A stretch of 51,640 nucleotides of DNA from Mesotoga sp. BH458_6_3_2_1 (GTDB lineage Bacteria; Thermotogota; Thermotogae; Petrotogales; Kosmotogaceae), in contig NZ_JFHL01000012.1 in the NCBI RefSeq assembly GCF_003664995.1, positions 1-51,640 on the forward strand, written 5' to 3'. This document shows, piece by piece, positions 1 to 3,600 of this stretch. Position 1 is the first letter of the stretch, and each line of letters begins with the position of its first letter. Below the pieces are notes generated by a model. That model was given only the letters and a program-made list of their open reading frames with translations. It was not told the origin of the DNA and did not search any database. The position numbers were made by a program, and so were the translations under genes.

Positions 1-1014
1 ACTATATCCCAGAGCAGCAGCACATTCAGCTGGAATGGTAGTGATTCGGATGGGACTATTGCTAAGTACGAATACAGAAAAGATGGAGGTACTTGGACAA
101 GCAATGGGACGAGCACAAGCTATACATGGAGCGGCTACTTAGAAGATTACCACACATTTGAAGTTAGGGCTCAGGACAACGAAGGCGCTTACTCAAGCAC
201 AGTAAGCTGGAGCTTCACATATTCGACGGGAGCGGTAGTAGTCGGAGAAATGGTACTCGTCGAGGGTGGAACGTTCACGATGGGAGATGAGTTTGGGGAT
301 CTAGAGGACTGGTGCAGACCAGTTCATGAGGTAACTCTCACATATGATTTCTGGTTGGGTAAATATGAAGTGACTTTCGACGAATACGACGCTTTCTGTG
401 AGGCCACTGGCAGGAGTAAGCCTGACGACTGGGGTTGGGGAAGGGGAACCAGACCTGTAATGAATGTCAGCTGGTGGGACGCGATAGCTTACTGTAACTG
501 GTTGAGCTCGAAAGAAGGATTGCCCGTAGCTTACAGATTGTTGGGAGAAACTGATGAAGGACAGATCTTGGACGCGAATGGCAATGTGACTACTGACATA
601 ACTAAGGTGGTGGGTTATAGATTACCGACACAGGCAGAATGGGAGTATGCTGCCCGGGGAGGAAAATACCGCTCGCCTTACAAATATTCGGGAAGCGATA
701 ATGTAGATGAAGTTGCTTGGTACGAGGAAAATTCGGGAAGCAAGACCCACGAGATCGGACTAAAACTGGCTAACGTGCTCGGTATATACGATATGTCTGG
801 AAACGTATGGGAATGGTGTAGCGACTGGTGGTACTACTACACAGAAACACCAAAGACGAACCCCTACAGCAGTACAATTGATTCCTACCGTATGAATCGT
901 GGGGGTTGTTGGTATTTTGGTGCGACAGGGCCGCGTGTAGCTAATCGCGGCTATAGTGATCCGACTGGTACGGGCAGCAACTTGGGCTTACGTATTTGCA
1001 GGATGGTGTACTGA
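1..1014 (+). CDS. FGE-sulfatase (C-type-lectin fold) surface protein, 3' part
   Basis: The reading frame is open from base 1, so the gene begins outside the window. The first ~80 codons encode an Ig/fibronectin-like domain (SDSDGTIAKYEYR, HTFEVRAQDNEGAYS). From about base 250 the frame encodes a formylglycine-generating-enzyme (SUMF1/FGE-sulfatase) domain with the usual landmarks: VEGGTFTMGD, NVSWWDAIAYCNWLS, YRLPTQAEWEYAARGG, GIYDMSGNVWEWCSDWW and a terminal RGGCW...LGLRICR. Many bacterial members of this fold are binding proteins rather than oxidases; the Ig-like domain suggests a surface or secreted ligand-binding protein (inference). The C-terminal ~40 codons resemble a DGR variable region. 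An internal ATG at 250 could be mistaken for the start, but it lies mid-protein. Confidence 0.85.
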   Translation, partial: TISQSSSTFSWNGSDSDGTIAKYEYRKDGGTWTSNGTSTSYTWSGYLEDYHTFEVRAQDNEGAYSSTVSWSFTYSTGAVVVGEMVLVEGGTFTMGDEFGDLEDWCRPVHEVTLTYDFWLGKYEVTFDEYDAFCEATGRSKPDDWGWGRGTRPVMNVSWWDAIAYCNWLSSKEGLPVAYRLLGETDEGQILDANGNVTTDITKVVGYRLPTQAEWEYAARGGKYRSPYKYSGSDNVDEVAWYEENSGSKTHEIGLKLANVLGIYDMSGNVWEWCSDWWYYYTETPKTNPYSSTIDSYRMNRGGCWYFGATGPRVANRGYSDPTGTGSNLGLRICRMVY

Positions 1015-1019
1015 ATACG
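889..1019 (+). other. Candidate DGR variable region (VR)
   Basis: The last ~40 codons of the FGE-fold gene fit the VR layout known from diversity-generating retroelements: constant RGG-W, RVANR, P and LGLR-R blocks separated by positions that in templates are usually AAC/AAT. Here those positions read TAT TTT GGT, GGC TAT AGT GAT and GGC AGC AAC, nearly all of NNC/NNT form, as expected after adenine-specific mutagenesis of AAY codons. A 6-bp inverted repeat, CGTATT (991-996) and AATACG (1014-1019), brackets the stop codon, where DGRs often carry a hairpin. No template repeat or reverse transcriptase is visible in the window. Confidence 0.5.
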
Positions 1020-1117
1020 CTTTAGCCTTTTTACAATTTACCCTTTTCTGCGGTTTCGAGCGCCTGGCACGGAGTAGCCCGCAGGCGCGAGGAGACGCAG
1101 GAGGTACCGGAGGTTAT

Positions 1118-1452
1118 ATGGCCTTCAGGATAATAACGGTCCCATTCGACAATTAGAGAGAAGTGTTCCCGGATAACGAGATCAACAACTTCCTGCTGGA
1201 CAAGAAGGTGAAAAGCTATTGAGTTAAGTTCTTTATCTGTTTCTAGAAGCCTTTCTGGGGCGTTTTTCTGGAATATGAAGAGATAGAGGATAGAAGCGTT
1301 GAAAAGCTGACATCACCTCAGGGTAAAGGATAGAAGGAAGTATTCGAAAAGCCGAAGGACCAGAAGAAGGAAAAGGGTTACAAACTCGGCTTTCCGGTTC
1401 CTATAGCGTACTTTCTGCTTTTTTATTGGCATCATAGCCTAACTGCTGAAGT
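1118..1452 (+). pseudogene. Decayed DGR accessory (HRDC-type) gene
   Basis: A good ribosome site (GGAGG at 1109-1113) precedes ATG 1118. The frame reads MAFRIITVPFDN and then continues with protein-like sequence (VFPDNEINNFLLDKKVKSY, KPFWGVFLEYEEIEDRSVEK, KEVFEKPKDQKKEKGYKLG) interrupted by four in-frame stops: TAG 1154, TGA 1220, TAG 1244 and TAG 1331. No frameshift is needed over more than 300 bp, so inactivation was by point mutation and looks recent. The pattern resembles the N-terminal part of HRDC-domain accessory proteins found beside DGR reverse transcriptases (from memory of the family). The HRDC domain itself would follow but is lost before the ROK gene. A 7-bp inverted repeat (1060-1066/1082-1088) lies just upstream. 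Confidence 0.5.
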
Positions 1453-2846: not shown

Positions 2847-3600
2847 GGGACAGACTCCTTTTTTAACATTCAGTTAACCTTAGGACCGTGACGCTGGGAA
2901 GAGCATCCCAGGAAGTAATGCGCCGAAAGATCACCGGCGGAAGTGATGCCCGGAGGATCGTCCGGGGAAGTGAGGCTGCTTCGCAGGAGGCAAAAAGGAG
3001 CCAGTCTGCTGCGCAGGCCAGTCAGGCTCCGCCTGGCCAGTCTCGCCTATGGCGAGGCCAGTTCCGCTTCGCGGGGAAGCAAAAAATCGGGTTAGAAAAG
3101 CGGGTTATCAGAACGGGTTCTTGAAGAGAAAGAAGCTGAGACAAGTAAAGACGAATTTGAAGGCTTATTCGGATGACGGGGGACCGTTGACGGACAACGA
3201 TGTCTTGAGAGTGTTCAGCGGGTCTTCTTTCTTAAGCGAAAAGCGGCTCTTGGTTGCGAGATACCGTGCAGACCCCCCAAACAGGAGAATTTTGGGGCAG
3301 GCTTTAAGGGCAGGCTCATCGGAATGACAATTAACAGTTACTGCGAAAAGGCTAGATTCAGTCATTCCGACAAAGCTCTTGGTCGGAATCTTGAGAGTAT
3401 TGATTCACGATTTTGACCTAGAATGTGAACAGACCCTTACTCTAGAACGAAGAACAGGTTTTATTCGGAGAACGGAGAACCGCTCAACGTTCAACCAGTT
3501 TCTCTTGCTCTTACGAACCCCCTACCTGCTAACCCAACCCCGGTCTTTCAAAAGCCCAGATCCTGAACAGGAGCACTTCAGGATGACAAAATGAGTTCGT
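2847..3600 (+). repeat. Mosaic hairpin repeat, copy A
   Basis: The left end GGGACAGACTCC...TTCAGTTAACCTTAGGACC is shared with copy B (5303). A hairpin array runs from 2888 to about 3090: CTGGG/CCCAG, CGCCG/CGGCG, CCCGGA/TCCGGG, CTGC/GCAG, then four hairpins separated by the linker CCAGT (CTGC-TG-CGCAG, CAGGC-TCC-GCCTG, CTCGCC-TAT-GGCGAG, CCGCTTCGCGG). From about 3283 to 3480 the sequence is nearly identical to 44033-44220, including the inverted TTCCGAC...GTCGGAA. No convincing gene is present; short open frames here arise from the palindromes. Confidence 0.8.

Follow-up and report, generated by a model that had tools for sequence, protein, structure and literature searches.

A probable DGR relic at the 3' end of an FGE-fold gene in Mesotoga sp. 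BH458_6_3_2_1

Positions 1-1430 of the window, the 51,640-bp stretch of DNA analysed here, very probably (at roughly 0.9) hold the first half of a dead cassette of a diversity-generating retroelement (DGR), a system by which selected codons in a binding protein are randomised. Its full order would have been FGE target, HRDC, Avd, reverse transcriptase (RT) and template. The window is the whole of contig C12 in the 36-contig, 3.23-Mb genome of Mesotoga sp. BH458_6_3_2_1 (G000), which is rated 99.98% complete. On this reading an RT, from this cassette or from a sister one within the lineage, would once have copied a template repeat and misread its adenines. The 3' part of the FGE gene would have been overwritten by the cDNA, converting AAC/AAT codons to NNC/NNT and leaving the framework constant; the pattern is seen in the sequences, and the process is inferred from known DGRs. 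Targets would have included several FGE genes, both in this genome and across the genus. The core would have been lost later, with HRDC decaying to a pseudogene while deletions removed Avd, RT and template. An initial annotation had taken the end of the FGE gene for a DGR target, a view now borne out by the constant framework, the variation at adenine sites, the template register and the HRDC pseudogene next door. The features concerned are collected in Table 1.

Table 1. Features assigned to the putative DGR relic, in window coordinates
Feature	Position	Strand	Basis
FGE/C-type-lectin-fold variable protein ORF	1..1014	+	ORF, domain search and PDB match
DGR variable region (VR): 36 codons in template register, then 3' framework	886..1014	+	comparison with known templates
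Constant 3' end of VR (GGnTTnCGTATTnnnAGGA...), equivalent to the initiation-of-mutagenic-homing (IMH) segment	985..1014	+	conservation
Conserved T-rich tract (ACGCTTTAGCCTTTTTACAATTTACCCTTT) 3' of the stop	1018..1047	+	comparison across VR loci
Imperfect inverted repeat, 19-nt arms, 74%	1048..1100	.	conserved 3' of several genus VRs
DGR-associated HRDC accessory protein pseudogene: N-terminal part and start of HRDC domain	1118..1429	+	BLASTP, tblastn

The target gene and its product

The target ORF lacks a start codon, its 5' end being cut by the start of the contig, and ends with a stop at 1012-1014; the C-terminus of the product reads ...YRMNRGGCWYFGATGPRVANRGYSDPTGTGSNLGLRICRMVY*. An Ig-like stretch is followed by an FGE domain (247-999), identified in Pfam as the FGE-sulfatase domain PF03781 (E=1e-53); the genome as a whole contains 18 matches to FGE domains, this one included. 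Among solved structures the top match was TvpA, a DGR variable protein from Treponema denticola (PDB 2y3c, E=1.2e-28), and true formylglycine-generating enzymes scored lower. Alignment with solved formylglycine-generating enzymes revealed no match to their catalytic cysteine pair in the C-terminal region of the window protein. The cysteine-bearing segment of these enzymes (e.g. GGSYMCHRSYCYRYR), which we take to hold the catalytic residues, aligns to GGCWYFGATGPRV, a stretch three residues shorter. As the open frame has been kept, the product is probably a ligand-binding protein of fixed specificity, a role predicted from its fold.

Repeats at 1-222, 5' of the FGE domain, are matched at up to 86% by contig C14 of this genome, and this may be the reason why the contig breaks there. 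Short repeated units (e.g. GGAAGTGA-, GCCAGTC- and GAGGCCAG-like) were also seen in the intergenic stretch 2900-3070.

The variable region of the window

The VR lies at the 3' end of a C-type-lectin/FGE-fold gene and is followed by a constant, IMH-like segment that is conserved across the genus and with the targets of the Desulfamplus and Prosthecochloris DGRs. Counted from 886, its template-defined AAY codons are numbers 1, 4, 10, 11, 12, 15, 20, 22, 23, 24, 28, 30, 31 and 32; these are the codons that are AAC/AAT in all five of a set of independent DGR templates from other phyla, against which the VRs were judged, the genus's own template not having been found. C or T occupies the third base in 13 of these 14 codons (with a base rate of 0.5, P is about 9e-4), the share of C/T-ending codons being 0.52 in the genes of the window and 0.49 in the body of the target gene. 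The initial remark that nearly all variable codons are NNC/NNT was thus confirmed at the template-AAY codons.

Against the consensus framework, 24 of 80 positions differ in the window VR, 17 of them third positions. Since this is the most framework drift among the copies compared, the VR appears not to have been overwritten for a long time, and with so many differences it is, on its own, weak evidence for a DGR. A sequence-only profile (R1) matches 876-1038 at 4.8e-29, the window itself being one of the 19 sequences in the alignment (A1) from which the profile was built.

The VR family across the genus

Sequence 3' of the window gene matched contig C30, which led to paralogues at C30, C3 and C25 of the same genome and at G011:C63. 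With the G011 copy as query, every well-assembled genome of the genus gave VR-type matches. Within the genus, profile R1 located VRs in 8 of 10 genomes; outside it, three genomes of the family and further Thermotogota, including other families, had them too. The genus framework reads CGG GTG NNT CGT GGC GGT AGC TGG NNC NNC NNT GCG ACG NNC GTG CGG GTA GCG in its first half and NNT CGC NNC NNC NNC TCG CCC ACT NNC ACG NNC NNC NNC CTC GGG TTC CGT ATT in its second. Framework DNA is nearly constant across species, also at silent sites, and the genus VRs share a single codon register with the templates of unrelated DGRs.

Pairwise diversity was compared by codon position in seven little-drifted VRs, which were picked by eye ahead of the test. 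At AAY codons it was 0.672 for positions 1+2 and 0.116 for position 3, and at the other codons 0.081 and 0.281, respectively. None of 3000 permutations reached the AAY-site contrast, a count to be read as a contrast and not as an exact probability because the VR copies share descent. When all 14 non-redundant VRs were taken, the values were 0.699 and 0.268 (AAY) and 0.157 and 0.385 (other), and the ordering was unchanged. Seven FGE C-termini without the VR signature, used as a control, showed no codon-position effect (0.713 versus 0.718). Because of this contrast between the VRs and the flat paralogue control, bases 1+2 of the VR codons appear to have been randomised with base 3 held, as from misreading of template adenines and unlike ordinary selection. 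Judged on the five templates from other phyla, the variable positions of the genus VRs thus coincide with template adenines.

The HRDC pseudogene

The initial annotation had also noted a decayed HRDC-like gene behind the target, and this was substantiated. Four in-frame stops (one TGA and three TAG, at about 1154, 1220, 1244 and 1331) interrupt the frame, whose 3' end is lost. With stops read as X, it matched the HRDC protein of the Prosthecochloris DGR by BLASTP (1e-8) and, better, the intact HRDC protein of the Desulfamplus DGR (36% over 97 aa, tblastn 1.9e-13). The HRDC domain of the Desulfamplus protein spans residues 73-139, and the match reaches only the start of that domain. No match was found in Pfam, NCBIfam or PHROGs, because the pseudogene is too broken and truncated, and a tblastn search against plasmids gave nothing at E<=1. 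The HRDC Pfam model found nothing above cut-off in the whole genome.

The accessory gene of the locus therefore exists only as this pseudogene; no Avd gene was found in the window, and neither an Avd nor an RT remnant was detectable there. The next gene, from 1473 on the opposite strand, belongs to the ROK family. At G011:C63, too, the VR is followed by this same HRDC start, broken off there as well. HRDC proteins also accompany the DGRs of T. denticola (PMC4891356).

Sequence elements after the stop codon

A T-rich tract (CTTTnGnnTTTTTACnTTTTTACC) follows the stop of the target gene in Thermotogota and in Desulfamplus and is less exact in Prosthecochloris. Such sites were seen after the VRs at 1018-1047 of the window and at L084, L086, L100, L122, L135, L147, L149, L256 and L243. 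The tract is absent from the Desulfamplus and Prosthecochloris templates. We suggest that it may form part of the homing address, and the comparison across phyla points to it as a candidate homing signal of the FGE-HRDC type of DGR.

An inverted repeat bracketing the stop, as initially described, was not recovered: the repeat finder returned none across 1012-1014, and the nearest one (arms 1048-1066 and 1082-1100, 74% complementary) lies 34-86 nt downstream. Nor does the stretch 1010-1120 fold better than shuffled DNA (z -0.75), and Rfam gave no match over the window. In G006, the 3' end of a restriction-component-like gene carries, without a VR, the 95-bp element that follows VRs elsewhere (L101 and L104, at about 1173 and 1160 kb of G006:C1), with a tyrosine-recombinase-like ORF adjoining.

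Comparison with intact DGRs

By DNA, a VR from G006 matched an unannotated spot on the conjugative plasmid pPAES01 of Prosthecochloris aestuarii (NC_011061; 75%, E=3e-3). It proved to be the template repeat within a complete DGR, whose other parts are an FGE target, an HRDC protein, Avd and an RT (IGNLTSQ). A 26-base template pattern then identified 19 further loci, spread over many phyla, and for nearly all of them the retrieved DNA also encoded a DGR-type RT. In one of them, in Desulfamplus magnetovallimortis (NZ_LT828545), the order is FGE-VR, HRDC, Avd, RT and template.

The window locus shares with the Desulfamplus and Prosthecochloris cassettes an FGE target with a C-terminal VR, the codon register, the T-rich tract after the stop and an HRDC gene directly 3' of the target, but differs from them in that this HRDC gene is pseudogenised and Avd, RT and template are missing. 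The window protein resembles TvpA, variable protein 1 of T. denticola, in its C-type-lectin/FGE fold and in a VR that aligns at the C-terminus, although identity within the VR itself is low. TvpA belongs to a DGR system with an RT and a template. Isolates of its species that lack both keep orphan targets, which were read as leftovers of lost DGRs (PMC4891356). The same situation is met here, with VR genes that persist without RT or template and HRDC as part of the intact systems; in T. denticola, however, the template is known from sister isolates, whereas none is known in the genus of the window, where the loss is genus-wide.

Template and reverse transcriptase search

Near-copies of 880-1025 and DGR-type RTs were sought throughout the genome, as the initial annotation had proposed. 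Beyond matches of 14-17 nt there was no template-like copy. An RVT_1 search returned group II intron-type RTs only, with IGxxxSQ in place of QGxxxSP as the mark of a DGR-type RT: one is full-length (QGGVISP), and the others are broken, including a copy on its contig. The earlier observation that neither template nor RT is visible on this side of the locus accordingly extends to the entire assembly. This outcome, one of those named at the outset as refuting a DGR target, counts against present activity and not against past action. Neither was found in G006 or G008, VR-carrying genomes of one and two contigs. Three partial matches (G023:C234, G023:C113 and G006:C1:1129830) were rejected as templates on reading. 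The VR had no match among phages; viral contigs yielded 53 matches to the VR framework pattern, none with framework around the match on reading, and none to the template pattern.

Two genus genomes carry an apparently intact DGR with a VR target, an Avd-like ORF and an RT (IGALTSQ) at L052 (G007:C212) and L058 (G009:C277). A template-like stretch (ALRGGNWNNGSNARSGL...) lies just upstream of the RT, and in G007 it is in frame with it. This phage-type DGR was rejected as the source of the window VR, having another template and another target.

The VR at G000:C25 is orthologous to that at G011:C23 in a sister species (98% over 728 bp), with one silent difference in the VR. Because this pair is near-identical, template and DGR-type RT are missing and the G007/G009 system is a different one, the VRs examined are, as far as their sequences tell, frozen relics. 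The DGR had initially been described as possibly dying; the loss of activity stands, but "dead at this locus" describes it better, because the locus lacks Avd, RT and template and its VR has drifted.

Alternative explanations

A system that is still active, with RT and template in an assembly gap or on a plasmid or prophage and acting in trans on scattered VRs, is quite improbable. With the assembly in 36 contigs and the target at the edge of one, the RT could conceivably lie in a gap or on a lost plasmid. Several genus VRs look little drifted (3-8 of 80 framework differences), DGR RTs with an Avd gene do occur in G007 and G009, and an FGE-type DGR travels on a conjugative plasmid in Prosthecochloris. 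Yet no template-like copy or DGR-type RT was found in G000, G006 or G008, the template of the G007/G009 system differs, in the window the HRDC gene is a pseudogene and no VR compared has drifted further, and the orthologous VR pair is frozen. Unlikely, too, is a scheme in which FGE genes with a VR stay on the chromosomes of the genus and act as docking sites, visited by an RT-template module that rides on mobile elements and is lost again. Were it true, the little-drifted VRs of genomes lacking a template would be recent products of a transient DGR in trans, and the homing address would be the T-rich tract, which three phyla share and templates lack.

That the VR gene and a short HRDC stub were transferred already apart from the DGR core, which would then never have been in the lineage, is an unlikely though conceivable course. 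The downstream element and HRDC start recur at G011:C63, and in G006 the element sits at the end of a restriction-like gene beside an integrase; eight of the ten genus genomes carry VRs, as do other families of the phylum, and this fits vertical inheritance with repeated loss of the core better, a point that is not decisive. Hardly credible is the notion that no DGR was ever involved and that these are ordinary FGE-sulfatase paralogues with a variable C-terminal loop and a codon bias. RGG-W, R-A-R and GFR are indeed generic motifs of the FGE family, and many of the FGE domain matches in the genome lack the VR signature. The inverse codon-position pattern is missing from precisely such ordinary paralogues, however, so that this notion is already contradicted, and it also fails to account for the near-constancy of the framework at silent sites between species, the adjoining HRDC pseudogene and a codon register like that of true templates. 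A dead FGE-HRDC-Avd-RT-template cassette thus remains the preferred reading.

Occurrence and related loci

A full-text literature search of partial coverage returned no paper on DGRs in Mesotoga and, for names of the Thermotoga type, nothing relevant. A DGR relic thus seems new for Mesotoga, orphan-target relics as such having already been described in T. denticola isolates (PMC4891356). A lineage of the Thermotogota, Mesotoga, is thereby added to the groups shaped by DGRs. Across the genus, diversified binding proteins outlive their mutator, which raises the question of why frozen DGR repertoires are retained.

A second VR family with a framework of its own (CGGGTGnnTCGGGGCGGCAGCTGG...TTTTAACTTTTGTATTTTTACC) was seen in G022 and G023, from another family of the phylum (L143-L154); no DGR RT was found in these two genomes. 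A 1054-aa protein with a VR, encoded on the minus strand at G000:C30:5019-8183 (L033), contains two FGE domains and two TIR_2 stretches. Two genes lie next to it: one encodes TPR repeats and matches AAA_16 weakly, below cut-off, and the other matches TrkA_N weakly. In published discussions of conflict systems, DGR-diversified FGE/C-type-lectin domains figure as sensors (PMC7159879, PMC10907252), and by analogy this locus resembles the published DGR-diversified sensor/conflict systems.
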